A stretch of DNA of 64,000 nucleotides from Roseomonas mucosa (lineage in GTDB: Bacteria > Pseudomonadota > Alphaproteobacteria > Acetobacterales > Acetobacteraceae), in the NCBI GenBank assembly GCA_945878375.1, contig CAMDWG010000012.1, positions 1 to 64,000 on the forward strand, written 5' to 3'. A model generated the notes under the pieces. That model made no database searches and had not been told where the DNA came from. It saw only the letters and a program-made list of their open reading frames with translations. Made by a program: the position numbers and the translations under genes. Position 1 is the first letter of the stretch. Each line of letters begins with the position of its first letter. Of the stretch, positions 13,503 through 29,546 are shown one piece after another.

Positions 13503-14486
13503 ATGCGTCGCCGCCAGGCTCTGACATTCTTCGCCGCACCGCTGATGCTGCCGGCCATCGCCCGGGCTCAGGGTGCCGCCGCGCCCTGGTCGCCGACGCG
13601 GCCGATCACACTCGTCGTGCCATTCCCGCCCGGCGGCCCCACCGACCTTGCCGGTCGCGTGATGCAGGCGGGGATGCAGGCGGCGCTCGGCCAGCCGGTG
13701 GTGGTGGACAACCGCCCCGGCGCGACGGGCGCCATCGGGTCGCGCCATGTCGCGCAAGCGGCGCCGGATGGCCACACGCTGCTGGTCGCGGCCAGCGGGA
13801 CGCTGACCATCAACCCGGTCGTCATGCGCAGCCCCGGCTACGATGTGGAACGCGACTTCGCGCCGGTGACGCTGGTGATGACCGCGCCCAACATGCTGGT
13901 CGTGCATCCTTCTGTCCCCGCCCGCACGGTGGCGGAGGTCGTGGCCTGGATGAAGGCGCAGCGCGGGGGCGTGAACTACGCCTCCTCCGGCGTCGGGTCC
14001 TCCGAGCAGTTGGGGATGGAGCTGTTCCGCCTCAGCACGGGCACCGAGGCGACGGCGGTGCCCTTCGCCGGCGGGCCAGCGGCGGCGCAGGCGGTGGTGC
14101 AGAACACGGTGCCCATGGCCGTGCTGAACGCCGCGACCATCGCGCCGCTGGTGCAGGGCGGGCAGCTGCGCGGGATCGCGGTGGCAGGTCCCCGCCGCCA
14201 CGCCCCGACGCCCGATGTCCCGACCATGACCGAGCAGGGCCTGCCGCAGATCGTCAGCGGCAGCTGGACGGCGGTGGTCGCCCCCGCCGCGACGCCCGCG
14301 CCGATCCTCGACCGGCTGAACCAGGTGATGGTCGCCTCGCTCCGCGCGCCGGAGGTGACGGAACGCCTGGCCCGTGTCGGCTTCGTGGTGGATGCCAGCA
14401 GCCGCGCGGACCTCGCCAGGCTGATCTCGGCCGACCTCGCCCGCTGGCGCGAGGTTGTGCGGCAGGCGCGGATCGAGCAGACCTGA
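13503..14486 (+). CDS. Bug/TctC family solute-binding protein (first gene of the heterocycle unit)
   Basis: A 327-residue periplasmic Bug protein. It has a signal peptide (MRRRQALTFFAAPLMLPAIA, cleavage around residue 23), then ITLVVPFPPGGPTDLAGRV, VVVDNRPGATGAIGSRHVA and VSGSWTAVVAPAATPAPILDRLN. It opens the long plus-strand unit that continues with a Liv-type importer and catabolic genes, so it probably binds the same or a related carboxylated compound. No TctAB partner is present. The gap to the next gene (104 bases) carries a hairpin, so coupling to the downstream genes may be partial. Confidence 0.92.
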   Translation: MRRRQALTFFAAPLMLPAIARAQGAAAPWSPTRPITLVVPFPPGGPTDLAGRVMQAGMQAALGQPVVVDNRPGATGAIGSRHVAQAAPDGHTLLVAASGTLTINPVVMRSPGYDVERDFAPVTLVMTAPNMLVVHPSVPARTVAEVVAWMKAQRGGVNYASSGVGSSEQLGMELFRLSTGTEATAVPFAGGPAAAQAVVQNTVPMAVLNAATIAPLVQGGQLRGIAVAGPRRHAPTPDVPTMTEQGLPQIVSGSWTAVVAPAATPAPILDRLNQVMVASLRAPEVTERLARVGFVVDASSRADLARLISADLARWREVVRQARIEQT

Positions 14487-14504
14487 CGCTTCGCTGAAAA
14501 ACGG

Positions 14505-14529
14505 CCAGGGGGGGCGCAACTCCCCCTGG
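14505..14529 (+). other. Intercistronic hairpin between Bug and livK-like genes
   Basis: Perfect 8-bp arms CCAGGGGG (14505-14512) and CCCCCTGG (14522-14529) enclose a 9-base loop. No T-run follows, so it is not a standard intrinsic terminator. It could protect the upstream mRNA end or lower read-through. Confidence 0.45.
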
Positions 14530-14590: not shown

Positions 14591-15820
14591 ATGGGTACCA
14601 ACAGCATCTCGCGCCGCACGGCGCTGGCGACCAGCGGCGGGCTGGCCGCTTCGGCCCTCATCGGCCTCCGCGCCCCGCGCGCGCAGGGCGCGCCGATCCG
14701 CATCGGGGAACTGAATTCCTACAGCCGCATGGCGGCCTTCTCCGTGCCCTATCGCAACGCGATGCAGCTGGCGGCGGATGCCATCAACCGCGCCGGCGGC
14801 GTGATGGGCGGGCGGCCGCTGGAATTCATCTTCCGCGACGACGGATCGACCCCGGGCGATGCCGTGCGGGTGGCGGAAGACCTGCTGACGCGGGAGAACT
14901 GCGCCTTCATCGCCGGCACCTTCCTGTCCAATGTGGGCCTTGCCGTCGCCGACCTCGCGAACCAGCGCAAGCGCCTGTTCTTCGCGACGGAGCCGCTTTC
15001 GGACGCGCTGACGATGGCGCAGGGCAACCGCTACACATGGCGGCTGCGCCCGAACACCTACATGCAGACGCGGATGCTGACCGAAGCCGCGCGCGGCCGC
15101 ACGGCGCGGCGCTGGGCGATCGTCGCGCCGAATTACGAATACGGCCAGTCGGCGGCGGCGAATTTCAAGCGGCTGATCACCAGCGCCATCCCCGGCGCGG
15201 AGATCGTGGCGGAACAATACCCGGCTCTGGGCCGCGTCGATGCCGGTGCGACCGTGGGCGCGCTGGCGCAGGCGCGGCCGGATGCGATCTTCAACGTCCT
15301 GTTCGGCCCCGACCTGACCGCCTTCGTGCGGGAAGGCAACACGCGCGGCCTGTTCGAACGCCGCTTCGTGCTGTCGCTGCTGACCGGAGAGCCGGAATAC
15401 ATGATCCCGCTGGGCGATGAATGCCCCGAGGGCTGGATCGTCACCGGCTACCCCTGGGAACAGGTGGATTGGCCGACCCACCGCGACTATGTCGCGGCCT
15501 ATCGCGCCCGCTTCAACGACACGCCGCGCAAGGGCAGCCTGCTGGGCTATGTGACGGTGCAGGTGATCGCGAATCTGCTGAACCGCGCGAACAGCCTGGA
15601 CAATGAAGCGCTGGTGGATGCGCTGCGCGACATGCGGACCGATACCGTCACCGGCCCGGTCACCATGCGGGGTATCGACCAGCAGGGCACGATGGGCACC
15701 TGGGTGGGAGAGACCGTGCTGCGCGGCCGCCAGGGCGGCATGCGGAATGCGCGCTATGTCGATGGCGCCGATGTGATGTTCCCCGAAGCGGAAGTGCGCG
15801 CGGCGCGCCGCCAGTCGTGA
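14591..15820 (+). CDS. Liv-type (branched-chain amino acid family) ABC substrate-binding protein
   Basis: A 409-residue periplasmic protein of the Peripla_BP_6 family. The N terminus (SISRRTALATSGGLAASALIGL) resembles a Tat signal with twin Arg. The mature part begins PIRIGELNSYSRMAAF, followed by NAMQLAADAINRAGGVMGG and RPLEFIFRDDGSTP, standard for amide/urea/branched-chain amino acid type binding proteins. Although the family name is branched-chain amino acids, such systems carry many organic acids and amides. It begins the transporter cassette (binding protein, fused permease, two ATPases) directly upstream of hyuA, and so is predicted to bind the substrate of the downstream enzymes. Confidence 0.92.
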   Translation: MGTNSISRRTALATSGGLAASALIGLRAPRAQGAPIRIGELNSYSRMAAFSVPYRNAMQLAADAINRAGGVMGGRPLEFIFRDDGSTPGDAVRVAEDLLTRENCAFIAGTFLSNVGLAVADLANQRKRLFFATEPLSDALTMAQGNRYTWRLRPNTYMQTRMLTEAARGRTARRWAIVAPNYEYGQSAAANFKRLITSAIPGAEIVAEQYPALGRVDAGATVGALAQARPDAIFNVLFGPDLTAFVREGNTRGLFERRFVLSLLTGEPEYMIPLGDECPEGWIVTGYPWEQVDWPTHRDYVAAYRARFNDTPRKGSLLGYVTVQVIANLLNRANSLDNEALVDALRDMRTDTVTGPVTMRGIDQQGTMGTWVGETVLRGRQGGMRNARYVDGADVMFPEAEVRAARRQS

Positions 15821-15875: not shown

Positions 15876-17738
15876 GTGGTCCAGGCCCTGTCGGGCCTGG
15901 CCAGCGCGTCATCGCTGTTCGTTATCGCATCCGGGCTGACGCTGGTGTTCGGCGTCACCCGGATCGTGAATTTTGCGCATGGCTCCTTCTACATGCTCGG
16001 CGCCTATATGGCGGTGACGATCGTGCCCTGGCTGCTGGAGATCGAGCGGTCGCCCTGGCTGTTCTTCGTGGGCGTGCTGGCCAGCGCGGTGGTGGTCGGG
16101 CTGCTCGGCGTGGCGATGGAAGTGCTGCTGCTGCGCCGCATCTACAAGGTGCCGGAACTGTTCCAGCTTCTGGCGACCTTCGGCGTGGTGCTGATGGTGC
16201 AGGATGCGGTGCTGTGGATCTGGGGGCCGGTGGACATCACCGGGCCGCGCGCGCCGGGGCTGCGCCATGGCGTCGAGATTCTCGGCCAGCGTTTCCCGGC
16301 CTATGAGCTGTTCCTGATCGCCGTCGGGCCATCCGTGCTCGGGCTGCTCTGGCTTCTGATGCACCGCACGCGCTTCGGAATCCTGATCCGCGCCGCGACG
16401 CGGGACCGGGAGATGGTCGGCGCGCTCGGCGTCAACCAGGCGATGCTGTTCACCGGCACGCTGTTCCTCGGCGCCTTCCTGGCGGGGCTGGGCGGCGCGC
16501 TGCAGATTCCGCGTGTTTCGGCTTCGGGGCAGATGGACCTCTCGATCATCACCGAGGTCTTCGTGGTGACGGTGATCGGCGGCATGGGCAGCGTGACGGG
16601 CGCCTTCCTGGCGGCGGTGCTGATCGGCCAGCTGCAGGCCTTCGGCGTGCTGGTCTTCCCGAAGATCACGCTCGTGCTGGTCTTCCTGCTGATGGCGGTG
16701 GTGCTGGTCATCAAGCCCTGGGGCCTGCTGGGCCGTCCGGAGCCCGCCGCCGGCCGCGCCGCCTTGCCGGAAGGCATCCTCCACCCGCGCGGCTTCGGCC
16801 GGCTGGAACGCGCGCTGCTGTGGGTGACCATCGCCGCCGCCTGCGCCCTGCCTCTGTTCGGCGACGCCTATGCGGTGAAGGTCGCGACCGAGGTGCTGGT
16901 CTTCGCGCTGGCCGCCTTCTCGCTGAACTTCCTGGTCGGCAACGGCGGCATCGTCAGCTTTGGCCACGCCGCCTATTTCGGGCTCGGCGCCTATGCGGCG
17001 GGGTTGCTGGTGACGAAGGGCGGCGTGCCGATGGAACCGGCGCTGATCGCCGCCCCCATCGTGGGCGGGGCCTTCGCCGCGCTGTTCGGTTTCTTCGTCG
17101 TGCGGCTGTCGGGCATCTATCTTGCCATGCTGACGCTCGCCTTCGCGCAGATCGCCTATGCGGTCTGCTTCCAATGGGTGGAGTTCACCGGCGGCGACAA
17201 TGGCGTGGTCGGGGTGTGGCCCAGCGCCTGGGCGGGCTCGCGGCATGTCTATTTCTACCTGGTCGCGGCCTGCGCCATCGGCGCGATCCTGGCGCTGCGC
17301 CACGTGATCTACGCGCCCTTCGGCGCGACGCTGCGGGCGGCTCGGGATTCGGAACAGCGCGCGGACGCCATCGGCGTGGATGTGCGGACGCATCGCTGGC
17401 TCGGCTTCATCCTGGCGGGTGCGGCGGCGGGGCTGGCGGGCGGGCTCTATGCCTTCTCGAAGGGCTCGATCGACCCGACCATGCTCGGCATCCCGATGTC
17501 GGTGGATTTCCTGGCCATGATCCTGCTGGGCGGCATGCAGACGGTGATGGGCGCGGTGGTGGGGGCGGCGGCGTTCCATGCGATCAAGGACGTCTTCATG
17601 CCGCTGACCGATTTCTGGCGCTTCTTCCTCGGCGCGGCGATCATCGCGCTGGTGCTGATCTTCCCGCGCGGCCTGGGCGGCGCCTATGGCGCCTTCCGCG
17701 CCCAGGTGACGGCGAAGACGAAGGCGGTGCGCGCATGA
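15876..17738 (+). CDS. Fused LivH-LivM permease of ABC importer
   Basis: A 620-residue inner-membrane protein that joins the two permeases usually encoded separately. Residues 1-285 are LivH-like (ASGLTLVFGVTRIVNFAHGS, VTVIGGMGSVTGAFLAAVLIG). After a 30-residue linker, residues 315-610 are LivM-like (NFLVGNGGIVSFGHAAYFGLG, then ILLGGMQTVMGAVVGAAAF). Each half has its own EAA-type loop. The coordinates use GTG at 15876. A CTG at 15858, 9 bases after GGAG, would add LEPGFL and match the typical family N terminus, so it is a credible alternative. The stop overlaps the next ATG (ATGA). Confidence 0.92.
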   Translation: MVQALSGLASASSLFVIASGLTLVFGVTRIVNFAHGSFYMLGAYMAVTIVPWLLEIERSPWLFFVGVLASAVVVGLLGVAMEVLLLRRIYKVPELFQLLATFGVVLMVQDAVLWIWGPVDITGPRAPGLRHGVEILGQRFPAYELFLIAVGPSVLGLLWLLMHRTRFGILIRAATRDREMVGALGVNQAMLFTGTLFLGAFLAGLGGALQIPRVSASGQMDLSIITEVFVVTVIGGMGSVTGAFLAAVLIGQLQAFGVLVFPKITLVLVFLLMAVVLVIKPWGLLGRPEPAAGRAALPEGILHPRGFGRLERALLWVTIAAACALPLFGDAYAVKVATEVLVFALAAFSLNFLVGNGGIVSFGHAAYFGLGAYAAGLLVTKGGVPMEPALIAAPIVGGAFAALFGFFVVRLSGIYLAMLTLAFAQIAYAVCFQWVEFTGGDNGVVGVWPSAWAGSRHVYFYLVAACAIGAILALRHVIYAPFGATLRAARDSEQRADAIGVDVRTHRWLGFILAGAAAGLAGGLYAFSKGSIDPTMLGIPMSVDFLAMILLGGMQTVMGAVVGAAAFHAIKDVFMPLTDFWRFFLGAAIIALVLIFPRGLGGAYGAFRAQVTAKTKAVRA

Positions 17739-18520
17739 CGCTGCTGGCGGCAGAGGGGCTGAACAAGGCCTTCGGCGGCGTGGTCGCGGCGAAGGACGTC
17801 ACCTTCGCGTTGGCGGCCGGGGAGATGCTGGCGATCATCGGCCCGAATGGCGCGGGCAAATCCACCACCTTCAACATGGTGGGCGGCCAGTTGCGCCCCG
17901 ATAGCGGGCGCGTGACGCTGGCCGGCCAGGACATCACCGGCCAGCCGCCGCGCCGCGTATGCCGGATGGGGGTCGGGCGCACCTTCCAGGTCGCGCAGAC
18001 CTTCCTGTCCATGTCGGTGGTCGAGAATGTGCAGATGGCGCTGATCGCCCATGCCGGCCGCACGCGGGACATGATCGCCCGCACCGCCGCGCTGTACCGG
18101 CCAGAGGCCGTCGCGCTGCTGGACAAGGTCGGCATGGCGGCGGATGCGGACCGGCCCATCGGCGAACTCGCCTATGGCGACGTCAAGCGGGTGGAGCTGG
18201 CCATCGCGCTGGCCGCCGCGCCGCGCCTGCTGCTGATGGACGAACCCACCGCCGGCATGGCCCCGCGCGAACGCGCCAACCTGATGACGCTGACGGCCGG
18301 CATCGCGCGGGAGGAAGGGATCGGCGTGCTCTTCACCGAACACGACATGGACGCGGTCTTCGCCCATGCCGACCGCATCCTGGTGCTGGTGCGCGGCGAG
18401 ATCATCGCCCAGGGCACGCCGGAACAGGTGCGCGCCGATGAACAGGTGAAGCGCGTCTATCTCGGCACCACCGGCCACAAGGCCGCACTCCGCGCCCGCA
18501 AGGCAGCCGCCCATGGCTGA
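17735..18520 (+). CDS. ABC importer ATP-binding protein, LivG-type
   Basis: A 261-residue cytoplasmic ATPase of the LivG (BCA_ABC_TP) group. Walker A is GPNGAGKST near residue 38. The LivG-specific region MGVGRTFQVAQTFLSMSVVENV follows, and Walker B is LLLMDEPTAGMAP. The signature loop is replaced by ELAYGDVKRVELAIALA, the usual LivG form. It pairs with the LivF-type protein as the heterodimeric motor under the fused permease. It starts inside the permease stop codon (ATGA) and ends 8 bases into livF, so the three are coupled. Confidence 0.93.
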   Translation: MTLLAAEGLNKAFGGVVAAKDVTFALAAGEMLAIIGPNGAGKSTTFNMVGGQLRPDSGRVTLAGQDITGQPPRRVCRMGVGRTFQVAQTFLSMSVVENVQMALIAHAGRTRDMIARTAALYRPEAVALLDKVGMAADADRPIGELAYGDVKRVELAIALAAAPRLLLMDEPTAGMAPRERANLMTLTAGIAREEGIGVLFTEHDMDAVFAHADRILVLVRGEIIAQGTPEQVRADEQVKRVYLGTTGHKAALRARKAAAHG

Positions 18521-19223
18521 GACGGTGCTGGAAGTGGAAGCGCTGCACGCCGGCTACGGCCCGGCGGAGGTGCTGTTCGGCGTCTCCCTGCTGCTGCGGC
18601 GGGGGGAGGTTGCGGCGCTGATGGGCCGCAACGGCGCCGGGAAATCCACCACGCTCAAGGCCATCATGGGCCTGCTGCCGGCCCGCGGCGGGTGCGTGCG
18701 CTTCCAGGGGACGGACATCACGGGGCTGCCCCCCTACCGCATCGCGCGGCTCGGCCTTGGCTATGTGCCGGAGGATCGTCGGATCTTCACGGACCTCACG
18801 GTGTTCGAGAATCTGGAGGTTGGCCGCCGCGCCGCGCGCGATCGCGCGGCGTGGACGCCGGATCGCCTGTTCGCCGTCTTCCCCAACCTCGCGGAGATGC
18901 GGAACCGCAGGGCGAGCGCGATGTCGGGCGGCGAACAGCAGATGCTGACCATCGCGCGCACGCTGATGGGCAACCCGGATGCCGTGCTGCTCGACGAACC
19001 CTCGGAAGGCCTCGCGCCGGTGATCGTGGAACAGATGGCGGAAGCCGTGCCGCGGATGAAGGCGGAAGGGATCGCCGTGTTGCTCTCCGAACAGAATCTC
19101 GACTTCGCCGCGGCGGTGTCGGACCGCGCCTATGTGATCGAGAAGGGCGGCATCCGCTACCAGGGCACGATGGAGGCGTTGGAAGCCGATGACGGCGCCC
19201 GCGCCGCCTATCTGACAGTATGA
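18513..19223 (+). CDS. ABC importer ATP-binding protein, LivF-type
   Basis: A 236-residue ATPase of the LivF group: Walker A GRNGAGKST near residue 38, the LivF segment LGLGYVPEDRRIFTDLTVFENL, signature AMSGGEQQMLTIARTLM, and Walker B AVLLDEPSEGLAP with a following H-loop replaced by SEQN (LLSEQNLDFA), normal for LivF. It completes the Liv cassette. It overlaps livG by 8 bases at its start and the hyuA start by ATGA at its end. This is strong evidence that uptake and the downstream hydrolase genes are expressed together. Confidence 0.93.
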   Translation: MAETVLEVEALHAGYGPAEVLFGVSLLLRRGEVAALMGRNGAGKSTTLKAIMGLLPARGGCVRFQGTDITGLPPYRIARLGLGYVPEDRRIFTDLTVFENLEVGRRAARDRAAWTPDRLFAVFPNLAEMRNRRASAMSGGEQQMLTIARTLMGNPDAVLLDEPSEGLAPVIVEQMAEAVPRMKAEGIAVLLSEQNLDFAAAVSDRAYVIEKGGIRYQGTMEALEADDGARAAYLTV

Positions 19224-21247
19224 CGATGCGGCGCGTCGCGGGGGTCGATGTCGGCGGCACCTTCACCGACCTGCTGTTGCAGGATGCGGATGGCGGGATG
19301 CGGCTGTCCAAGGTGCCGACCACTTCACCCAACCAGGCCGATGGCGTGCTGGCCGCGATCGAGGCCGCGGGCGCCGATCCGGCCTCGCTCGACCTGATCA
19401 TCCACGGCACCACGGCCACCACGAATGCGGTACTGGAACGCAAGCTGGCGCGTGTCGGCCTCATCACCACGCTCGGCTTCCGGGACGTGCTGGAGCTGGG
19501 CCGCCGCACGCGCCCGAATTCCTATGGCATGACCGGCAGCTTCGAGCCGCTCGTGCCGCGCGAGCTGCGGCGCGAAGTGGCGGAACGGGTGGATGCGCGC
19601 GGCCAGGTCGTGACCTCGCTGGATGAGGATGCGGTGGCGCGGGACGTGATCGCGCTGCGCGATGCGGGCTGCGAGGCGCTGGTCATCCACTTCCTGCACG
19701 CCTACGCCAACCCCGCGCATGAGAAGCGGGCGGGGGAGATCGCACGGGCGATCTGGCCGAACCACTATGTCACGCTGGGGCATGAGCTGCTGTCGGAGTT
19801 CCGCGAATACGAACGCGGCACCACCGCATCGGTCAACGCCGCCGTGCAGCCGGTGCTGGACCGCTACCTGCATCGCCTGCAGGACCAGCTGGCGGCGCGC
19901 GGGCACAGGCGCGACCTGCTGGTGATGAACGGCAATGGCGGCACGGTGCCGGCGCGGCTGGTGGCGAAGGAAGCCGCCAAGACCGTGATGTCCGGCCCGG
20001 CCTCCGGCGTCATGGCGGCGGCGGCGACGCTGGCGCAAAGCGAGCTGTCCAACGCCATCACCTACGACATGGGCGGCACATCGACCGATGTGGCGCTGAT
20101 CGCGGGCGGGGTGCCGGAGGTCTCGGCGGAGCTCTCCATCGCCTATGGCCTGCCCATCCACCTGCCGATGGTCGATGTCCGCACCGTCGGCGCCGGCGGC
20201 GGGTCCATCGCGGGGCTGGATCGCGCGGGGATGCTGCGCGTCGGTCCGGAAAGCGCGGGCAGCGCGCCGGGGCCGATCTGCTATGGCCGCGGCGGCACAA
20301 GACCCACGATCACCGATGCGAACCTCGTGCTCGGCCGGCTCGACCCCGCCAGGCTGCTCGCGGTGCGGGATGCGGTGCCGATGGAGCGCATCCGGGATGC
20401 CTTTCTGCGGGAGGTGGGGGAGCCGCTCGGCCTTTCGGTGGAACAGGCGGCGGAAGCGACGATCCGGCTGGCGAATGTGCACATGACGGGCGCGATCCGC
20501 ATGGTCTCGCTGTCCAAGGGCCATGATCCGCGCGACTTCGTGCTGTTCGCCTTCGGCGGTGCCGGCCCGTTGCATGCGGTGGCGCTGGCGCGGGAAATCG
20601 GCATCCCCGAAGTGCTGGTGCCGGCCCGGCCGGGGCTGACCAATGCGCTGGGCTGCCTTGTCGCCGATCTGCGGCAGGATCTGGTGAACACGCTCAACCG
20701 CGGCCTGGACGACATCCCGGAGGAAGAGATCGCGGCAACGCTCGCCGCCCAGCGCGAACGCGGCCTGGCGACCGTGCTGGCGGAGAAGGGAGAGGTCGAG
20801 GACGCGCTGGTGCTGCATTCGGCGGAGATGCAGTTCCGCGGCCAGACCCACCTGATCCGTGTCCCGCTGCCGCATGCGGCAATGACCCGCGCCGAGATCC
20901 AGGCCGCCTTCGAAGCCGCCTATTTCGCCCGCTTCCAGATCCGCATGCCTGAGATTCGCGCGGTGCTGGTGAACCTCAACACCAGCGTGATCGGCAAGCG
21001 CCCGGGCTTTTCCCTCGCCGGGTTGCTGCCGGAAGGCGATGGCGATGCGCTGGTGGGCGAACGCCCGATCTACGCGGATGGCGCCTGGCACGCAGCCAAG
21101 ATCTGGCAGCGCGAGAGGCTGCGGCGCGGCACGCGGATCGCGGGCCCCGCCATCATCCAGCAGGCCGATGCGACGACGGTGCTGGAACCGGGCAGCGAGG
21201 CCGTGGTGGATGTGCTGGGCAATCTGCGGATCAAGGTGCGGGCATGA
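19220..21247 (+). CDS. Hydantoinase/oxoprolinase family, subunit A (HyuA-like)
   Basis: A 675-residue ASKHA-fold ATPase subunit. Phosphate-1 motif VDVGGTFTD is at 9-17. Later segments are IHGTTATTNAVLERK, TYDMGGTSTDVALI, VDVRTVGAGGGSIAG and FAFGGAGPLHAVALA. With HyuB it forms ATP-dependent hydrolases that phosphorylate and open lactam or imide rings (5-oxoproline, N-methylhydantoin) or carboxylate ketones (acetone, acetophenone). Which of these applies cannot be read from the motifs. Neighbouring ring-hydroxylating and ring-reducing genes favour opening of a lactam made in this pathway. ATGA overlaps join it to livF and to hyuB. Confidence 0.92.
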   Translation: MTMRRVAGVDVGGTFTDLLLQDADGGMRLSKVPTTSPNQADGVLAAIEAAGADPASLDLIIHGTTATTNAVLERKLARVGLITTLGFRDVLELGRRTRPNSYGMTGSFEPLVPRELRREVAERVDARGQVVTSLDEDAVARDVIALRDAGCEALVIHFLHAYANPAHEKRAGEIARAIWPNHYVTLGHELLSEFREYERGTTASVNAAVQPVLDRYLHRLQDQLAARGHRRDLLVMNGNGGTVPARLVAKEAAKTVMSGPASGVMAAAATLAQSELSNAITYDMGGTSTDVALIAGGVPEVSAELSIAYGLPIHLPMVDVRTVGAGGGSIAGLDRAGMLRVGPESAGSAPGPICYGRGGTRPTITDANLVLGRLDPARLLAVRDAVPMERIRDAFLREVGEPLGLSVEQAAEATIRLANVHMTGAIRMVSLSKGHDPRDFVLFAFGGAGPLHAVALAREIGIPEVLVPARPGLTNALGCLVADLRQDLVNTLNRGLDDIPEEEIAATLAAQRERGLATVLAEKGEVEDALVLHSAEMQFRGQTHLIRVPLPHAAMTRAEIQAAFEAAYFARFQIRMPEIRAVLVNLNTSVIGKRPGFSLAGLLPEGDGDALVGERPIYADGAWHAAKIWQRERLRRGTRIAGPAIIQQADATTVLEPGSEAVVDVLGNLRIKVRA

Positions 21248-22932
21248 GCGAACCGGATGCGCTGACGCTCGCGGTCATCCAGGCGGGGTTGCAGCAGGTC
21301 TGCAACGAGATGGATATCGCCTTCTCCCGCGCCGCCTTCTCTCCGGTGATCGCGGAAGCCAATGACCGATCCGACGGCATCTACGGCGCCGAGGATGGCG
21401 CGCTGATCGCGCAGGGCGAATTGGGCCTGCCCGTCTTCGTCGGCACCATGGCGCATTCGGCGGCGCATATCGCCCGGCTGATCCGGGAAGGCGAGGTCGC
21501 GGCGCCGGAACCGGGCGATATCTACATCGTCAACGACCCCTATCTCGGCGGCACGCATCTGATGGATGTGCGCTTCGCCAAGCCGGTCTTCGTCGATGGA
21601 ACCCTTTTCTGCTGGCTGCAGAACACCGGCCATTGGCCGGATATCGGCGGCATGGTGCCCGGTGGCTTCAGCGCCCATGCGACGGAAGTGGAACAGGAAG
21701 GGCTGCGCCTTCCGCCGGTCAAACTGTTCAAGCGCGGGGAGATCGACCGCGAGATCCTCTCCATCATCCAATCCAATATCCGCGTCGCCGGCCAGCGCAT
21801 CGGCGACATCAAGGCGCAGGCCGCAGCCTTGCTGGTAGGGGAAGCGCGGCTGAACGAGATGCTCGCGCGCCACGGCCGCGCGACGCTGGAAGCCGCCATC
21901 GCCGGCATCCGCGCGCGATCGGCGGACCGCATGCGCGCGGAGATCCGCCGCATCCCGGATGGGGTCTATCGGTCGGAAGCCTTCGTCGATTCCGACGGGG
22001 TGGTGAACCAGCCGCTCCGCATCGCGCTCACCCTGACGAAGCGCGACGACCGGCTGATCTTCGACCTGTCCGAAAGCGCCCCGCCCTGCCAGGGGCCGAT
22101 GAACTCGGTCTGGGCGACAACCTGCAGCGCCGTCTATCTCGGCGTGAAGCATGTCTTCCCCGATGTCCCGATCAATGCCGGCACCTTCGAACCGCTGGAG
22201 GTGATCCGGCCGGAGGGCACCTTCCTCGATGCCCACTACCCGCGCCCCGTCTCGGGCTGCGCGGCGGAGGTCAGCCAGCGCATCGCGGAAGCGGTGTTCC
22301 TCGCACTCGCCCAGGCGATCCCGGATGCGCTCTGGGGCGCGCCGGCGGGCACATCGGGGAATTTCGCACTCGGCGGCTCCGATCCGGCGCGGGGGGCCAG
22401 CTATGTGATGTACCAGATCACCGGTGGCGGCCATGGCGGCAATGCGCGGGAAGACGGTCTGACCAATGCCTGTTCCACCATCGGCATCAGCAAGACCCCG
22501 CCGGTCGAGGTGATGGAGCAATACTTCCCCATCCTGTTCCGCCGCTTCGCCATCCACGAAGGATCGGGCGGCGCGGGGCAGCATCGCGGCGGCTTCGGCG
22601 TGCATTACGAGATCGAGCTGCTGCGGGGGGAAGCGCGCGCCAGCTTCGTGATGGATCATGGTCGCTTCGGGCCGCCCGGCGTGCTGGGCGGCGGGGATGG
22701 CGCCCCGAATGTCGTCAAGCTGCATCGCGGCGGCGTCACCACCACGCCGGAGCATCTGTCGAAGGACCAAGGCCTTCGCCTTGTCGCGGGCGACCGGGTG
22801 GAGGTGATGACGCCGGGCGGCGGCGGTTATGGCGACCCGCTCACCCGCGACCGCGCGCTGGTCGCACGCGACGTGGCGCGCGGCACCTATACGGCCGAGC
22901 AGGCGGAACGCCTGTTCGGTCCCTTCGCATGA
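21244..22932 (+). CDS. Hydantoinase/oxoprolinase family, subunit B (HyuB-like)
   Basis: A 562-residue hydantoinase B subunit of normal length. Landmarks are the opening DALTLAVIQAGLQQVCNEMD, FSRAAFSPVIAEANDRSDG, NDPYLGGTHLMDV, the Gly/His segment ITGGGHGGNA and EGSGGAGQHRGGFG near the C terminus, ending with GGGGYGDPLTRD. It is the metal-containing catalytic partner of HyuA in this family. It is ATGA-coupled to hyuA. Its own stop overlaps the ATG of a 49-codon frame that bridges to the next enzyme gene. Confidence 0.92.
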   Translation: MSEPDALTLAVIQAGLQQVCNEMDIAFSRAAFSPVIAEANDRSDGIYGAEDGALIAQGELGLPVFVGTMAHSAAHIARLIREGEVAAPEPGDIYIVNDPYLGGTHLMDVRFAKPVFVDGTLFCWLQNTGHWPDIGGMVPGGFSAHATEVEQEGLRLPPVKLFKRGEIDREILSIIQSNIRVAGQRIGDIKAQAAALLVGEARLNEMLARHGRATLEAAIAGIRARSADRMRAEIRRIPDGVYRSEAFVDSDGVVNQPLRIALTLTKRDDRLIFDLSESAPPCQGPMNSVWATTCSAVYLGVKHVFPDVPINAGTFEPLEVIRPEGTFLDAHYPRPVSGCAAEVSQRIAEAVFLALAQAIPDALWGAPAGTSGNFALGGSDPARGASYVMYQITGGGHGGNAREDGLTNACSTIGISKTPPVEVMEQYFPILFRRFAIHEGSGGAGQHRGGFGVHYEIELLRGEARASFVMDHGRFGPPGVLGGGDGAPNVVKLHRGGVTTTPEHLSKDQGLRLVAGDRVEVMTPGGGGYGDPLTRDRALVARDVARGTYTAEQAERLFGPFA

Positions 22933-23078
22933 TGCAGAGCCCACGATCTTCCGCCCTGCGGCCCGAAGAGCCGAGCGGCCGAATGGCCGCCGCCGCTTAT
23001 GCGGCGAAGCCAAGCGGCCGGAGGCCGCGCCCGGCGACTGAGGGGCACGAAGGTGAAACCTTCGTGCTGGGATTATGA
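22929..23078 (+). CDS. Possible 49-residue small ORF bridging hyuB and the FAD-subunit gene
   Basis: The ATG overlaps the hyuB stop (ATGA) and the TGA overlaps the following ATG (ATGA), so this frame fills the gap exactly. The product is basic, Ala/Pro/Arg-rich and hydrophilic (starts MMQSPRSSALRPEEP), with no recognised domain. It coincides with an array of hairpins (22975-23067), which argues that the DNA is primarily a palindromic repeat that happens to stay open in this frame. Translation could still matter, for keeping ribosomes running through the structured region into the next gene. Confidence 0.25.
   Translation: MMQSPRSSALRPEEPSGRMAAAAYAAKPSGRRPRPATEGHEGETFVLGL
22975..23067 (+). 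repeat. Array of four consecutive hairpins inside the operon
   Basis: Four perfect inverted repeats follow one another: GCGGCC/GGCCGC (22975-22990, loop GAAT), CGCCGC/GCGGCG (22991-23006, loop TTAT), GCGGCC/GGCCGC (23014-23028, loop GGA), and a 10-bp arm GCACGAAGGT with its complement (23045-23067, loop GAA). The last ends 7 bases before the ATG of the FAD-subunit gene, where a ribosome-binding site would be expected. There is no T-tract. It may be a REP-type element or an mRNA structure that tunes translation. Confidence 0.75.
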
Positions 23079-23917
23079 CCGCCATTTTTCGCCCGCGCAG
23101 CCTGGAGGAGGCACTGGCCATCCGCGCCGCGCGTGATGTCGCGGTGATCGCGGGTGGCACCGACATCTACCCGGCACATGCCGCCCGCCGCGCCTGGGGC
23201 GAGCCGACGCACAAGGACGTGCTCGACATCTCCGCGATCCCCGGCCTCGCCGCCGTCGAGGACAGTGGGGATCACTGGCGCATCGGCTGCCTCGTCACCT
23301 GGTCCGCGCTGCGCGGCACCCCCCTGCCCCCGCTCTTCGACGGGCTGAAGCGCGCGGCGCGGGAGGTGGGCGGGATGCAGGTGCAGAATCGCGGCACGCT
23401 GGTCGGCAACCTCGTCACCGCCTCTCCCGCCGGGGACGGTATCCCGAACCTGCTGGCGCTGGATGCGCAAGTGGAGATCGCGGGCGGCGACGGGCGGCGC
23501 GTGGTGCCACTCCCGGCCTTCCTCACCGGCTACCGCGCGACGGCGCTGCGACCGGATGAGATCGTGACGGCGCTGCTGATCCCGCGCCTCGCCGATGCGC
23601 GCGGGGCGTTCGAGAAGCTGGGCGCGCGGCGCTACCTTGTCATCTCGGTCGCGATGGCGGCCGGCGTGGTCGCCACCGATGCGGAAGGGCGCATCACGAC
23701 CGCCCGGCTTGCGCTCGGCGCCTGTTCGGCGGTCGCGCAGCGCCTGCCGGCGCTGGAAGCGGCGTTGCACGGCGTCGCGCTGCGGGACGCGGCGCAGGTT
23801 CCGGATGCCGGGCATCTCGCCCATCTCGACCCGATCGACGATATCCGCGGCTCGGCGGCCTATCGGCGGCATGCGGCGCTCGCGCTGCTGCGCGACCTGC
23901 TGGGGGGGCTCGCATGA
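23075..23917 (+). CDS. Xanthine dehydrogenase family FAD-binding subunit (CoxM/XdhB-type)
   Basis: A 280-residue FAD subunit of molybdenum hydroxylases. FAD-binding segments are VIAGGTDIYPAHAAR near residue 25 and GTLVGNLVTASPAGDGIPNL near 110. The C-terminal CO_deh_flav_C part includes FEKLGARRYLVISVAMAAGV. It passes electrons from the [2Fe-2S] clusters of the partner to an acceptor. Its partner is the fused iron-sulfur/molybdopterin gene that begins inside its stop codon (ATGA). Position just after the hairpin array suggests that its translation is structure-controlled or coupled to the small bridging ORF. Confidence 0.92.
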   Translation: MTAIFRPRSLEEALAIRAARDVAVIAGGTDIYPAHAARRAWGEPTHKDVLDISAIPGLAAVEDSGDHWRIGCLVTWSALRGTPLPPLFDGLKRAAREVGGMQVQNRGTLVGNLVTASPAGDGIPNLLALDAQVEIAGGDGRRVVPLPAFLTGYRATALRPDEIVTALLIPRLADARGAFEKLGARRYLVISVAMAAGVVATDAEGRITTARLALGACSAVAQRLPALEAALHGVALRDAAQVPDAGHLAHLDPIDDIRGSAAYRRHAALALLRDLLGGLA

Positions 23918-26607
23918 TCGCCTTCACGCTGAATGGCGCGCCGGTGGAAACCGACGCCCCCGGCTTCGCGCCCCTGTCGGACACGCTGCGGGAAGGGCTC
24001 GGCCTGACCGGCACGAAGGTGGGCTGCGAGGCCGGCGATTGCGGCGCCTGCACCATCCTGCTCGACGGCCAGCAGGCCTGCGCCTGCCTGGTGCCGACGG
24101 CGCAGGCCGAAGGCGCGCAGGTCACCACCATCGAGGCAAATGACCCGCTGCTGGCGCGGCTGCGCCTCGCCTTCCTTGCCCATGGCGCGGCGCAATGCGG
24201 CATCTGCTCGCCGGGCATGATCATGGCGGCGGCGGCGCTGCTGCGTCAAAACTCATCGCCGTCGCGCGACGCGGTCGCGGATGCGATCGGCGGGGTGCTG
24301 TGCCGCTGCACGGGCTATCTCAAGATCATCGATGCGGTGATGGATGCCGCGCCGTCCCTGCCCGTCGCGCCGGCGGCCGGTGAAGCGGTGGGCGCTTCGG
24401 TCACGCGGCTGGATGGCTGGGCGAAGGTCGCCGGCACGGATCGCTTCGGCGCGGACCAGGCGCCGGCCGATGCGCTCTGGCTCCGCGTGGTGCGCTCGCC
24501 ACATGCGCGGGCGCGCTTCACCCTGGGCGATCTGGGCGCGGCGGCGCGGCGGCTCGGGCTGGATCGCATTCTCTCCGCAGCGGATATCCCCGGCCGCAAC
24601 GCCTTCGGCATCATGCCGAACCTGAAAGACCAGCCGGCGCTGGCGGAAGCCGAGGTGCGCTTCCGCGGCGAAGCCGTGCTGATGCTGCTCGGGCCCCGTG
24701 CGGTGGTGGAGGCGGTGCGCGACGCCGAGCTGCCCATCGCCTGGGATCCCCTGCCCGCCCTGCACGGCGTCGCCGCCGCGACGGCGGAAGGCGCGCCGCT
24801 GCTGCACACGCATGCGCCCGGCAATGTGCTGGTGCGCGGCTACCTCGAGACCGGCGATGTCGCGGCGGGCCATGCGGCCGGCGCCGCCAGCGCGGAGGGC
24901 AACTTCCGCACCGCCTTCGTCGAACACGCCTATATCGAGCCCGAGGCCGGCCACGCCCTGCCCCTGCCCGACGGGGTCGAACTCTTCGCCTGCACCCAGG
25001 CCCCCTACATGGACCGTGAGGAGACGGCGCGCGTCGTCGGCCTGCCCGAGGACTCCGTGCTGATCCGCCCGAGCGCCTGCGGCGGCGGCTTCGGCGGCAA
25101 GCTCGATGTCTCCATCCAGCCGCTTCTGGCCGTCGCGGCGCGGGTCACGGGGCGGGCGGTGCGGATCGTCTATTCCCGCACGGAGAGCATGGCCTCCACC
25201 ACCAAGCGCCATCCGGCGGAATTGCGCGCGCGCATGTCCGCCGATGCGGAAGGCCGCTTCACGGCCTTCGAGCTGGATGGCGATTTCAACACCGGCGCCT
25301 ATGCCAGCTGGGGCCCGACGGTCGCGAACCGCGTGCCCGTTCATGCCTCCGGCCCCTATCGCGTGCCGCATGTCCGCAACCGCACGCGCGCCATCTACAC
25401 GAACGACACGCCGGCCGGCGCCTTTCGCGGCTTCGGCGTGCCGCAGGCCGCCATCGCGACGGAAAGCCTGGTGGATGAGCTGGCCGACAAGCTCGGGATG
25501 GATCGGTGGGAGATCCGCCGGCGCAACGCAATCGGCATCGGGGATGCCACGCCGTCCGGCCAGGTGCTGCATGCCTCGGCGGGGCTGCCGCAATGCCTGG
25601 ATGCGCTGAAGCCGGGCTGGGATGCGATGGTCGCCCGCGTCGCCGCGCATAATGCGACGGCCACGCGGCATCGGCTCGGCGCCGGCATTGCCTGCATGTG
25701 GTATGGCTGCGGCAATACCAGCATGTCGAACCCGTCGCGGATGCGCGTGGTACTGGCGCGCGACGGTGCGCTGACGCTGTTCAACGGCGCGGTGGATATC
25801 GGCCAGGGCAGCACGACGGTGATCGGGCAGATCTGCGCCGATGCGCTCGGCCTGCCGCTCGGCGCCTTCCGCTTCGTGCTGGGCGACACCGACCGCACGC
25901 ATGATGCCGGCAAGACCTCCGCATCCCGCCAGACCTTCGTCAGCGGCCGCGCGGCCTATGAAGCCGGGCGTGACCTGCGGCGGCGCATCCTCGCTTTGGC
26001 CAATGCGGGGGAGGATGCCGCGCTGGCGTTGGATGGCACGCGCCTGACCGTGAGCGACCGGGCGGGCGGCGATCGCGTGATCGACCTCGCCGCGCTGCCA
26101 GAGGATCTGGAAGGCGATGGGCGCTACGACCCGCCCACCACCGGGCTCGATGCGAAGGGCCAGGGCGTTCCCTATGCGACCTACGGCTTCGCCGCGCAGA
26201 TCGCGCTGGTCCGCGTCGATACCGTGCTCGGCACGGTGAAGGTGGAAGCGATCGAGGCCGCGCAGGATGTCGGCCGCGCGATCAACCCGCAGATGGTGCT
26301 GGGCCAGATCCATGGCGGCATCGCGCAGGGGCTTGGTCTCGCGCTGATGGAGGAATTCATCCCCGGCCGCACGGAGAACCTCCACGACTACCTGATCCCG
26401 ACCGCCGGCGACGTGCCGCCCATCCGCATCCATCTGGTCGAGGACCCGGAACCCGAAGGCCCCTATGGCGCCAAGGGGGTGGGGGAACCCGCGCTGGTGC
26501 CGACCGCGCCCGCCATCCTTGGCGCGATCCGCCACGCGGCGGGCGTCACCCTCCGCCAGGTGCCGGTCCTGCCGCATCGGCTGTGGGAGGCGATGCGTGA
26601 CAGATAA
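23914..26607 (+). CDS. Fused [2Fe-2S] + molybdopterin subunit of a xanthine-dehydrogenase-family hydroxylase
   Basis: An 897-residue fusion of the small (CoxS) and large (CoxL) subunits. Residues 1-145 hold two [2Fe-2S] sites: C38, C43, C46, C58 (plant-type) and C95, C98, C130, C132. After a linker (about 146-160) the molybdopterin part begins SVTRLDGWAKVAGTDRFGA. It contains the glycine-rich SACGGGFGGKLDV, AGAFRGFGVPQA and TSASRQTFVSG, and near residue 858 GVGEP with the conserved active-site Glu. Such enzymes add a water-derived OH next to a ring nitrogen. The frame is uninterrupted, so the fusion is genuine. It overlaps the next gene by 11 bases. Confidence 0.92.
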   Translation: MIAFTLNGAPVETDAPGFAPLSDTLREGLGLTGTKVGCEAGDCGACTILLDGQQACACLVPTAQAEGAQVTTIEANDPLLARLRLAFLAHGAAQCGICSPGMIMAAAALLRQNSSPSRDAVADAIGGVLCRCTGYLKIIDAVMDAAPSLPVAPAAGEAVGASVTRLDGWAKVAGTDRFGADQAPADALWLRVVRSPHARARFTLGDLGAAARRLGLDRILSAADIPGRNAFGIMPNLKDQPALAEAEVRFRGEAVLMLLGPRAVVEAVRDAELPIAWDPLPALHGVAAATAEGAPLLHTHAPGNVLVRGYLETGDVAAGHAAGAASAEGNFRTAFVEHAYIEPEAGHALPLPDGVELFACTQAPYMDREETARVVGLPEDSVLIRPSACGGGFGGKLDVSIQPLLAVAARVTGRAVRIVYSRTESMASTTKRHPAELRARMSADAEGRFTAFELDGDFNTGAYASWGPTVANRVPVHASGPYRVPHVRNRTRAIYTNDTPAGAFRGFGVPQAAIATESLVDELADKLGMDRWEIRRRNAIGIGDATPSGQVLHASAGLPQCLDALKPGWDAMVARVAAHNATATRHRLGAGIACMWYGCGNTSMSNPSRMRVVLARDGALTLFNGAVDIGQGSTTVIGQICADALGLPLGAFRFVLGDTDRTHDAGKTSASRQTFVSGRAAYEAGRDLRRRILALANAGEDAALALDGTRLTVSDRAGGDRVIDLAALPEDLEGDGRYDPPTTGLDAKGQGVPYATYGFAAQIALVRVDTVLGTVKVEAIEAAQDVGRAINPQMVLGQIHGGIAQGLGLALMEEFIPGRTENLHDYLIPTAGDVPPIRIHLVEDPEPEGPYGAKGVGEPALVPTAPAILGAIRHAAGVTLRQVPVLPHRLWEAMRDR

Positions 26608-28096
26608 CCCCGTCAGCGCCGAAGCCCGCAGCCTGAAATTCGGCCAGGCGGAAGGCGAGGGCATCATCCGCTGCGATGCCTGCCCGGTGCTGTGCCGCAT
26701 CCGCCCCGGCCGCGCCGGCGCCTGCAGCCGCTACGCCAATGAAGGCGGGCAACTGGTCCGCACCGATCCTGCGGTGGCGCTGGCGCACAGCGTGGAGGGC
26801 GGCGGGAAGGTGGTCGCCTTCGCGGAAGGCGGCTGGGACGGCAAGCTGCTCGATCCCGCGCGCAGCTTCATCACCGGCATCGGCGCCGGCACCACCTATC
26901 CGGACTACAAGCCCGCGCCCTTCATCGTCGGCGCCACCCATGCGGGCGTCGATACCGTCACCGTCGTGACAGAGGGAATCTTCAGCTATTGCGGCGTGAA
27001 GGTGAAGATCGACACCGACCGCCACCTCGGCCCCGAAGCCGCGCCCGTGCGCGCGCGGGGCGAACAGGTGGGGCATGTCACCACCGCCGAATATGGCAGC
27101 CAGATGCTGAGCCTCGGCGGTGTGCGGCACCTGACGGGCGGCAGCAAGAAGGAAGGCACCGTCACCTGCGAGACGCTGCTGGCCCTCTGCGCGGGGGACG
27201 CGGTCACGCTGACCATCGATGGCGGGCATGAGGTGGTGGTGCAGGCCGGCCAGGCGCCCATCGTGGATGGCACGCCGGAGCGACGCATGCGGGTTGGCTG
27301 CGGCAGCGCGACCATCGGCATCTTCGCGCAGCAATGGCTCGGCCATGCTGATGAGGTGATCGTGGTGGATGACCACATCACCGGCGTGCTGACCGAACAC
27401 CAGGCGGGCAAGGTGCTGGGCATGCGCGCGGCGGGGATCCGCGTGCGCGGGCGGCGGTCCACGCCGGGGCGCTATTTCCAGGTGGCCAATCCGGGCCTCG
27501 GCTGGGGCGGGACGGACATCACCGACCCGCTTTCCATCATCGACGCCATCGACCCCAAGACCGCCTGGCCCGGCCTACGCCTGCTGCTGACCTCCACCAC
27601 CGGCGAAGACGCGCTGTGGTGCGTGCTGGACGACCAGCTGCGCTCCGTCCCGGCGGAGATGCCCGCGCCCGTCCGCCGCGTGGTCGATCGCATCGGCGAG
27701 AATTGCGAGCCCTCGCTCTGCACCGTGCTGTTCATGGCAGGCGCCGGCGGTTCGCTGCGCGCGGGCGTCACCGACAACCCGGTGCGGCTGACGCGGGCCG
27801 TCGCATCCGGCGAGGTGCGGGTGACGATGGGCGGGGCGCCCGCCTATCTCTGGCCAGGCGGCGGCATCACGGTGATGGCCGATGTGCTGCGCCTGCCGAA
27901 GAAGGCCTTCGGCTACGTCCCCACCCCCGCCCTCGTCGCGCCGATCGAATTCACCCTGCCGCGTGCGCTCTACGCCGAACTCGGCGGGCATATGGCGGAG
28001 ATCGTGCCCGTCGAGACCCTGCTGCGCGGCCTCGGCGACCAGCTGCGGGTCGAGGGGTGGATGCCCGGCAATCCCTGGCCCTTCGACGCGCCATGA
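26597..28096 (+). CDS. 6-hydroxynicotinate reductase family iron-sulfur flavoprotein
   Basis: A 499-residue homologue of 6-hydroxynicotinate reductase (Hnr), which in Eubacterium barkeri reduces the hydroxylated pyridine ring to a cyclic enamide and carries covalent flavin plus Fe-S clusters. Here an N-terminal cysteine cluster (C26, C29, C33, C43 in CDACPVLCRIRPGRAGACSR) likely binds Fe-S. Seven more Cys are scattered (132, 191, 198, 235, 342, 370, 375). GCGSATIG at 234-241 is a weak candidate for flavin attachment. Start is GTG with GGGAGG 6 bases upstream, inside the previous gene. It follows a ring hydroxylase and precedes an ApbE-superfamily gene, so a ring-reduction step is likely. The substrate is not known. 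Confidence 0.82.
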   Translation: MTDNPVSAEARSLKFGQAEGEGIIRCDACPVLCRIRPGRAGACSRYANEGGQLVRTDPAVALAHSVEGGGKVVAFAEGGWDGKLLDPARSFITGIGAGTTYPDYKPAPFIVGATHAGVDTVTVVTEGIFSYCGVKVKIDTDRHLGPEAAPVRARGEQVGHVTTAEYGSQMLSLGGVRHLTGGSKKEGTVTCETLLALCAGDAVTLTIDGGHEVVVQAGQAPIVDGTPERRMRVGCGSATIGIFAQQWLGHADEVIVVDDHITGVLTEHQAGKVLGMRAAGIRVRGRRSTPGRYFQVANPGLGWGGTDITDPLSIIDAIDPKTAWPGLRLLLTSTTGEDALWCVLDDQLRSVPAEMPAPVRRVVDRIGENCEPSLCTVLFMAGAGGSLRAGVTDNPVRLTRAVASGEVRVTMGGAPAYLWPGGGITVMADVLRLPKKAFGYVPTPALVAPIEFTLPRALYAELGGHMAEIVPVETLLRGLGDQLRVEGWMPGNPWPFDAP

Positions 28097-28962
28097 CCGG
28101 GGCGACGGTCCAGCGCCTCGACGGCGGGCGGCTGCATTGCAGCCACGGGCCGATCGATGTGGTGCTGGCCGGCTTCGGCCCGCCAGAGGCCGTGCGCGCC
28201 GCAGAGGCCGCGGCCGCGCGGCGGTTCCACACGATCCTGGATGAACTGGTGGCGGAACTGCCAGCGCTACGCCGCCCGGTCGGCTCGGCCCCGCATCTGG
28301 AAGGCGCCGTCGCGCGCCGGATGCGCGATGCCTGCGCCCCCTTCGCGGCGCAGGGTATCTTCGTCACCGCGATGGCCGCCGTGGCCGGCGCGGTTGCGGA
28401 TACGCTGCTGGCGGCGATGCGAGAGGCCGCGCCCGATCTGACCCGCGCCTATGTGAATGATGGCGGCGACATCGCGGTCTTCGCGGCGCCGGGCGAGTCG
28501 CTCGCCATCGGCCTCGCAGCCGCCCCCTTCCCCGGCACGGCTTTCGACGGCGCGCTGCGGATCGGCGCTGGCGACGGGATCGGGGGGGTTGCGACATCCG
28601 GCCGGCATGGCCGGTCCTTCTCGCTGGGCATCGCCGATGCGGTGACGGTGCTGGCGCGGGATGCCGCGACGGCGGATGCCGCCGCGACGCTGATCGCGAA
28701 CGCCGTGGACCTCGTGAGCCCCGCCATCGCCCGCCGCCCGGCGCGGGACCTCGACCCGGATAGCGACCTGGGCGAGCGGCCGGTGGTCGTCGCCTGCAGC
28801 GCCCTGGCGCCGGATGAGGTCGCGGCGGCGCTCGCGGCCGGCCTGGCGCGGGCCGAGGCCTGGTGCCGGGCCGGGCTCATCCGCGGCGCGGCGCTGCGGC
28901 TGGCCGGCGAGGCGCGGCTGGCCGGCACCCCCTTCCCCGCCCTGACGGAGCAGTTCGCATGA
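28093..28962 (+). CDS. UPF0280 family protein (ApbE superfamily)
   Basis: A 289-residue UPF0280 protein. The family signature GGVATSGRHGRSFSLGIADA lies at 164-183, and NDGGDIAV at 122-129 matches the NxGGD element of ApbE flavin transferases. No signal peptide is present, unlike periplasmic ApbE. ApbE proteins attach FMN to Thr/Ser of target proteins; the function of UPF0280 is not established to my knowledge. Its place directly after an Hnr-like gene (ATGA overlap), whose studied relative has covalent flavin, makes a dedicated cytoplasmic flavinylation role attractive. That role is inference. Confidence 0.87.
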   Translation: MTGATVQRLDGGRLHCSHGPIDVVLAGFGPPEAVRAAEAAAARRFHTILDELVAELPALRRPVGSAPHLEGAVARRMRDACAPFAAQGIFVTAMAAVAGAVADTLLAAMREAAPDLTRAYVNDGGDIAVFAAPGESLAIGLAAAPFPGTAFDGALRIGAGDGIGGVATSGRHGRSFSLGIADAVTVLARDAATADAAATLIANAVDLVSPAIARRPARDLDPDSDLGERPVVVACSALAPDEVAAALAAGLARAEAWCRAGLIRGAALRLAGEARLAGTPFPALTEQFA

Positions 28963-29546
28963 CCCAGGACCTCGCCATCCGGAAGACCATCCTGCATGTC
29001 GAGGAAGTGCACCACGATGGCGGACCGCCTCGGGACAAGCCGGTGCTGAAGGGCTGGTGCGCCGTGATCCTCGCGAACCCCTTCGCCGGCCGCTACGAGC
29101 CCGAGCTGATGTGGATGATGGAGGCGATGAAGCCCATCGGGCTGATGGTGGCGGAGCGGCTGCTGGCCGGGCTCGGCGGCGATCCGGATGCGGTGGAGGC
29201 CTATGGCAAGGGCGGGCTGGTCGGCAGCGCGGGGGAATTGGAGCACGGCGCGCTGTGGCATGTCGCAGGCGGCTATGCGATGCGCGGGCTGCTCGGCAAG
29301 GCGCTGGCCATCGTGCCATCGATGACCAAGGTCGGCCCGATGGGGGCGGTGCTGGACCTGCCGATCCATCATCGCAACGCCGCCTATGTGCGGAGCCACT
29401 TCGACGGCATCACCTGCGTCGTCCCCGACGCCCCCCGGCCCGACGAGATCCTGTTCGCCCTGGCCATGACCACCGGGCCGCGCCCGCATGCCCGCGTGGG
29501 CGGGCTGACGCAGGACGCCATCGCCCAATGGGACGGCCAGCGGTAA
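28959..29546 (+). CDS. DUF1185 / amino acid synthesis family (AA_synth) protein
   Basis: A 195-residue cytosolic alpha/beta protein of PF06684, whose name (amino acid synthesis) reflects old annotation, not a proven activity. Recognisable segments are IRKTILHVEEVHHDGG at the N terminus, KGWCAVILANPFAGRYEPEL, YGKGGLVGSAGELEHGALWH and LDLPIHHRNAAYVRSHFDG. It is ATGA-coupled to UPF0280 and is the last gene of the unit. From memory, homologues recur beside Hnr-like and UPF0280 genes in proteobacteria, which suggests an enzymatic step on the ring-reduced or ring-opened intermediate. Conserved Glu/His residues (GELEHG, IHHRN) are candidates for catalysis. Confidence 0.85.
   Translation: MTQDLAIRKTILHVEEVHHDGGPPRDKPVLKGWCAVILANPFAGRYEPELMWMMEAMKPIGLMVAERLLAGLGGDPDAVEAYGKGGLVGSAGELEHGALWHVAGGYAMRGLLGKALAIVPSMTKVGPMGAVLDLPIHHRNAAYVRSHFDGITCVVPDAPRPDEILFALAMTTGPRPHARVGGLTQDAIAQWDGQR

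Follow-up and report, generated by a model that had tools for sequence, protein, structure and literature searches.

The window analyzed here, by which we mean the whole 64,000-nucleotide stretch of Roseomonas mucosa contig CAMDWG010000012.1, carries a plus-strand operon that encodes a Liv-type importer, the two-subunit protein HyuAB, a molybdenum hydroxylase, a homolog of 6-hydroxynicotinate reductase (Hnr) and members of the UPF0280 and DUF1185 families. We consider it probable that this operon serves nicotinate uptake and reductive catabolism and that HyuAB acts in it as a non-orthologous replacement of the amidohydrolase enamidase, the two enzymes having been exchanged repeatedly. The reductive nicotinate pathway of Eubacterium barkeri uses enamidase, whereas the genome to which the window belongs shows none and apparently employs HyuAB instead. 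We found no report of HyuAB in nicotinate breakdown in the open-licence PMC literature.

The original prediction had noted that no enamidase is encoded beside these genes, and this holds across the window's whole genome (3.86 Mb, with a listed completeness of 100%), in which none was found with a query that recovered orthologs in other genomes. Because HyuAB may fill the ring-opening step that is left vacant, this absence points to a variant of the nicotinate pathway. The amidohydrolase of the alternative clusters is an enamidase ortholog, its best match in the PDB being enamidase 2VUN (E = 3e-99). The suggestion that HyuAB may replace this enzyme had come with a proposed co-occurrence check, and it is strongly supported by the complementary distribution that we observed: in three samples, the Hnr-linked HyuA subtype and enamidase split the genomes having Hnr almost completely.

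The first sample consisted of 80 Hnr loci, those ranking best among 445 relatives, and is skewed to the closest kin of the window. In the flanks fetched around Hnr, many of which were cut by contig ends, HyuA was found at 30 loci, enamidase at 20, both at none and neither at 30; after a whole-genome search of the remaining loci, the counts were 43 with HyuA only, 33 with enamidase only (at least 52% identity), one with both and three with neither. One locus (L006) was scored as HyuA type through its HyuB. The second sample comprised 398 Pseudomonadota genomes, for which the best candidates per genome were scored (HyuA subtype at E ≤ 1e-200, enamidase at 51% identity or more). Hnr was present in 32 of these, with the HyuA subtype only in 15, enamidase only in 15, both in two and neither in none. 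Each of the two enzymes occurred in 17 genomes, every one with Hnr, and neither was found by these thresholds in the 366 genomes that lack Hnr. By genus, nine had HyuA and seven had enamidase only; one HyuA genus had enamidase too in two of its eight genomes, and two families (f2 and f12) each hold both kinds. The third sample, 26 plasmid records with Hnr, divided into 10 with the HyuA subtype (at least 59% identity) and 16 with enamidase (at least 52%), with no record having both or neither. Among the best 40 of 58 plasmid HyuA matches the last had 44% identity, and the other 18 rank lower.

Distant enamidase-like proteins (35–43% identity overall) also occur apart from Hnr. Two are in genomes without Hnr (G318:C15:5607-6809 and G369:C84:4705-5841; 41–42%), and nine plasmid records, including those of Rhodococcus and Haloarcula, have such proteins with no Hnr on the same plasmid.

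The exchange of the two enzymes can be followed on the tree of Hnr (81 proteins, of which 45 are HyuA type, 33 enamidase type and three unlabelled), whose bootstrap was not fully settled. The ring-opening trait changes nine times on this tree, with seven of the changes forced by well-supported branches, and the placement of all enamidase rows in a single clade was rejected (p = 1.4e-5). A quick tree of the hydroxylase (64 rows) likewise has the two types intermixed, with six changes, three of them forced. The HyuAB/enamidase swap thus seems, as judged from these trees, to have occurred several times in evolution. Its clearest instance is an in-place swap between L056 and L071, both contigs of metagenome-assembled genomes (MAGs), in which the hydroxylase, Hnr, UPF0280, DUF1185, a molybdopterin subunit and a further DUF1185 follow in common order; in L071, extra reading frames flank the first DUF1185 on both sides. 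The next slot holds HyuA-HyuB in L056 (16532-20346) and an enamidase on the other strand in L071 (13504-14691). Beyond this slot both have a homologous gene (93% identity over 165 residues), which belongs to the isochorismatase family in L056 and reaches the contig end in L071. The identities between the two loci are 87% for Hnr, 80% for the hydroxylase molybdopterin (Mo) subunit and 66% for UPF0280.

The genes of the window that are relevant to this proposal are as follows.

13503 to 14486, plus strand: Bug/TctC-type binding protein (PF03401), adjacent to the conserved unit and outside it
14591 to 15820, plus strand: LivK-type substrate-binding protein of the uptake system (PF13458, E = 1.2e-63)
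15876 to 17738, plus strand: fused LivH-LivM permease (PF02653 in two stretches, a UrtB-like half followed by a UrtC-like half)
17735 to 18520, plus strand: LivG ATPase (best family NF008449, under its cut-off)
18513 to 19223, plus strand: LivF ATPase (PF00005)
19220 to 21247, plus strand: HyuA, ATP-binding subunit of a putative ATP-dependent lactamase, Hnr-linked subtype (PF05378, PF01968, PF19278)
21244 to 22932, plus strand: HyuB, predicted metal-dependent hydrolytic subunit (PF02538, E = 4e-158)
23075 to 23917, plus strand: FAD subunit of the molybdenum hydroxylase, a putative nicotinate hydroxylase (PF00941, PF03450)
23914 to 26607, plus strand: fused 2Fe-2S and Mo subunit of the hydroxylase (PF00111, PF01799, PF01315, PF02738, PF20256)
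26597 to 28096, plus strand: Hnr, 6-hydroxynicotinate reductase homolog (annotation of relatives; conserved Cys)
28093 to 28962, plus strand: UPF0280 (COG2122), ApbE superfamily, putative Hnr maturation factor (NF003322, above cut-off)
28959 to 29546, plus strand: DUF1185/AA_synth protein (PF06684, E = 2.1e-65; 3byq, E = 1.3e-54)

Every gene named in the original prediction was found, all on the plus strand, and its description of overlaps at almost every junction from livH/M onward was accurate: with the listed starts, eight of the nine junctions from LivHM to DUF1185 (15876-29546) are overlaps of 4–11 bases, the sole other junction being a 142-bp gap between HyuB and the FAD subunit. The Bug gene, which had been counted as part of the unit, does not belong to it, as the approximately 1.5 kb upstream of livK holds no Bug in any of 11 relatives. 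That the gene run is conserved beyond chance is indicated by the flanks of the 80 Hnr loci, which include UPF0280 at 77 and the hydroxylase Mo subunit (at least 50% identity) at 73. Promoter and terminator scans gave no signal above that of shuffled sequences. A YjgF/RidA-like gene lies shortly upstream of the unit (window 12240-12701, plus strand).

HyuA has the ATP motifs of its family (VGGTFTD from D10, MGGT from D283 and GSAPGP at 347, matching DxGGTxxD, DMGGT and GxxPGP), and HyuB has D41, H105, D108 and H130 in the Asp-His-Asp-His metal-ligand pattern of CapB, as placed by motif and spacing rather than by structural superposition. Both sets of motifs are taken from the part of the work on the caprolactamase CapAB that describes them (PMC8453981). 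A section of PMC11033972 describes OplAB, of the same family, as hydrolyzing the six-membered δ-valerolactam with ATP. To the extent covered by these accounts, the window's HyuAB resembles CapAB and OplAB as a two-subunit ATP-dependent lactamase with the same ATP and metal motifs. It differs from them in falling under the caprolactamase cut-offs, in an identity gap that sets it apart (as seen in pairwise identities rather than a HyuA tree) and in its proposed substrate, a six-membered cyclic enamide. The best NCBIfam model for HyuA is that of the caprolactamase alpha subunit, under its cut-off. The gap is apparent from the HyuA copies at Hnr loci, which have at least 55% identity to that of the window, whereas other HyuA proteins have at most 49.7%; among the whole-genome HyuA matches of the first sample, 13 genomes had at least 59% identity and the next match was at 47%.

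Regarding the substrate, which the original prediction left open, our analyses narrow the choice, with nicotinate, via 6-hydroxynicotinate, being the best reading, because the genes for Hnr, the hydroxylase and UPF0280 are common to the enamidase-type clusters and because a nicotinate-degrading strain reportedly carries an Hnr cluster. The relevant section of PMC3511419 describes nicotinate degradation by the Bradyrhizobiaceae strain SG-6C, and an Hnr homolog 42% identical to E. barkeri Hnr in a conserved cluster; the enzyme of the third step is unnamed in that section. The window thereby resembles the Azorhizobium caulinodans and SG-6C clusters of that account in having an Hnr cluster. The annotation of Hnr relatives also suggests that the substrate is probably nicotinate (vitamin B3): the 26 plasmid relatives (60.5–78.5% identity) are annotated as 6-hydroxynicotinate reductase in 17 cases and as hypothetical in three, with six having no annotation. 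The name Hnr is based on these plasmid relatives and not on comparison with the E. barkeri sequence; the closest named relatives are from Falsiroseomonas and Roseomonas. A molybdenum hydroxylase of the xanthine dehydrogenase family, as the reductive nicotinate pathway requires, is present by a family-level criterion. In the PDB its fused Mo subunit matches nicotinate dehydrogenase (3hrd_A, E = 1.6e-72 over 407 residues), below a top match to aldehyde oxidoreductase 1sij.

For the organism of the window we infer the substrate, the reactions and the fate of the product as follows. The Liv-type importer would take up nicotinate, which the molybdenum hydroxylase would convert to 6-hydroxynicotinate and Hnr would reduce to 1,4,5,6-tetrahydro-6-oxonicotinate. 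This lactam, whose opening by a bifunctional enamidase in E. barkeri is described in part of PMC9304392, would be opened by ATP-dependent hydrolysis, with HyuA activating it, either directly or through carboxyphosphate, and HyuB hydrolyzing the activated lactam at its metal site. The resulting aminomethylene-glutarate would then break down to 2-formylglutarate and ammonia, either spontaneously or assisted by a further protein. The order of hydroxylation, ring reduction and ATP-dependent opening proposed in the original prediction fits the protein families.

Among other explanations, the one given the most weight is that the HyuAB clusters serve another N-heterocycle, with variants of the hydroxylase and Hnr acting on a different ring and HyuAB opening a different lactam. 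The substrate reading of these clusters comes from sequence, which leaves room for another ring, and the identities of the hydroxylase Mo subunit between the two types are 62, 64, and 65% in three of the five pairs compared; a fourth pair (L043/L075) has 32%, with L075 having no ortholog in its flanks. However, the two types are intermixed on both the Hnr and hydroxylase trees, and Hnr, the hydroxylase and UPF0280 are 66–87% identical between L056 and L071, where gene order is kept, and we therefore regard this explanation as unlikely. Still less credible, and in our view highly improbable, is that HyuAB is a 5-oxoprolinase or hydantoinase unrelated to the pathway and placed in the operon by chance. 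The HyuA family is large, with several paralogs in many genomes, but the subtype at Hnr loci is separated from other HyuA proteins by the identity gap described above, and every one of the 398 genomes in which it was found also has Hnr. An ATP-dependent carboxylase acting on a pathway intermediate, in the manner of acetone or acetophenone carboxylase, would belong to the same superfamily, and the acetophenone carboxylase models do match, although with lower scores (296 bits for HyuA and 136 for HyuB) than those of caprolactamase. As no additional carboxylase subunit was recognized among the operon genes, and as HyuAB alternates with a hydrolase, enamidase, which implies hydrolysis, we find a carboxylase scarcely credible.

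Several observations weigh against the replacement of enamidase by HyuAB in nicotinate breakdown. The caprolactamase scores (487.5 bits for HyuA and 297.3 for HyuB) are far below the cut-off of 1000. Enamidase needs no ATP and, therefore, the benefit of the ATP cost of HyuAB is unexplained. The separation of the two enzymes is incomplete, since both are present at ortholog level in L052, G203, and G274 and neither is present in L060, L069, and L078, all of them MAGs, from which genes are possibly missing. Five HyuA genomes of the first sample have distant enamidase-like proteins (38–41% identity), and the L056 genome of the in-place swap also holds one (38%). Linkage is not uniform: in the first sample, 13 of the 44 HyuA genomes had HyuA outside the fetched flanks, some of which were cut, and in the second sample it was no more than about 10 kb from Hnr in nine of 17 genomes and more than 70 kb away or on another contig in eight. 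Seven plasmids have the HyuA subtype with no Hnr on the same replicon, this being the only replicon searched. The species compared are not independent, and the samples are also uneven: the class of the window supplies 29 of the 32 Hnr genomes of the second sample, and Sulfitobacter accounts for 12 of the 26 Hnr plasmids, so that these records are not independent either. Lastly, we infer a common substrate for the HyuA-type and enamidase-type clusters from the genes that they share.

A search at E = 0.001 gave no Pfam or NCBIfam match for Hnr itself. Seven of its Cys residues (C26, C29, C33, C43, C191, C235, and C370) are conserved in 56 of 56 rows, and C132 in 55. All 56 members have a weak match to GCV_T_C, the C-terminal barrel of glycine cleavage T-protein (best E = 1.5e-5), which in the window's Hnr lies at 26993-27100 (residues 133–168). 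The Hnr model gave no Foldseek match at E ≤ 0.001, and its best VIA Z score was 4.5 over 65 residues, to T-protein; as this was a whole-chain model whose domains were not folded singly, we claim no new fold. A kinship of Hnr with DUF39/HcyBio was also considered: this family was absent from the weak Pfam matches of the 56 members, a comparison that did not extend to DUF39 sequences themselves, and a search of the window's own genome recovered no member of it. In four loci a 2-oxoacid:ferredoxin oxidoreductase pair is present beside the Hnr cluster, annotated as such in L056 (3265-6195, minus strand) and assigned by cluster in L067, L074, and L075; it could supply Hnr with reduced ferredoxin. 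Sagittula stellata E-37 has the HyuAB variant on a plasmid typed as conjugative. There, the gene directly upstream of Hnr (L129:11006-11833) encodes a ferredoxin-NADP reductase, a plausible electron route to Hnr in that strain.

UPF0280 closely follows the distribution of Hnr: among the 398 genomes it was found in the 32 with Hnr and in no others, and it is on 26 of 26 Hnr plasmids. For the three of 80 Hnr loci at which it was missing, only the flanks were searched: L069 ends 84 bases past Hnr, and L066 and L060 have 5.3 kb and 10 kb downstream without it. On one further plasmid, that of Hydrogenophaga sp. BPS33, a UPF0280 gene (L127:8938-9870) is present beside IS1071 with no Hnr on the plasmid; it lies in repeats that also include IS1071 and genes for Rieske oxygenase, and the record has four matching places.

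UPF0280 may mature Hnr. E. barkeri Hnr reportedly holds a covalent flavin, and this is the reason that a flavin transferase is suggested. The UPF0280 model (predicted local distance difference test score of 93.6) aligns to ApbE 1vrm with a Z score of 17.1 and a root-mean-square deviation of 3.0 over 217 residues, while the first fold other than ApbE had a Z score of 7.9. Pfam ApbE matches 25 of 50 UPF0280 members (best E = 3e-5), although not the window's own protein. As far as the relevant section of PMC12052999 describes the ApbE flavin transferases and their Ser-His-Asp triad, UPF0280 resembles them in fold, in an aligned Ser and Asp (S168 and D194, in 50 of 50 rows) and in a DxxxT motif. 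The profile alignment to Escherichia coli ApbE by which the triad was placed is weak (probability 9.8%). Unlike that system, UPF0280 has no conserved His, there being no column between S168 and D194 with His in more than half of the 50 rows, and the canonical flavinylation motif D-x-x-[S/T]-G-A-[S/T] is in none of 81 Hnr sequences. We also rejected Thr239 of Hnr (GSAT) as a universal flavinylation site, because it is Ala in 12 of 56 rows and because of the lack of the canonical motif. That UPF0280 is a dedicated Hnr maturation enzyme, attaching a covalent flavin through a modified form of ApbE chemistry that dispenses with the usual His base and target motif, is consequently a tentative proposal that we hold to be somewhat doubtful.

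DUF1185, which the original prediction included in the unit, is present in the window, but its tie to Hnr is looser than that of UPF0280 (54 vs. 77 of 80 flanks, many of them cut). It was found in 23 of 44 HyuA-type loci, 30 of 33 enamidase-type loci and one of the three others, and clusters in L029, L034, L043, L072, and L129 have two neighboring copies. A role as an enamine deaminase was considered, an idea that would come from the Bacillus chorismate mutase-like fold alone, as described in part of PMC2954203.

Through its exact co-distribution with Hnr in the 398 genomes, the unexplained UPF0280 family acquires a biochemically accessible partner. If UPF0280 does attach flavin, similar chemistry might account for the joint requirement for COG2122 and DUF39 in anaerobic homocysteine synthesis in other organisms, which is described in a section of PMC5764234. 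If our proposal for HyuAB is true, an entire branch of bacterial vitamin B3 breakdown would rely on an ATP-driven lactamase for the step at which the described pathway employs enamidase, which needs no ATP, and a function would be provided for a HyuAB subtype that is labelled in records as hydantoinase/oxoprolinase or acetophenone carboxylase. Two unrelated enzymes that alternate beside a shared set of core genes, and that change at least seven times on one tree, would then constitute a natural experiment on why a cell would spend ATP on a hydrolysis that is available for free.

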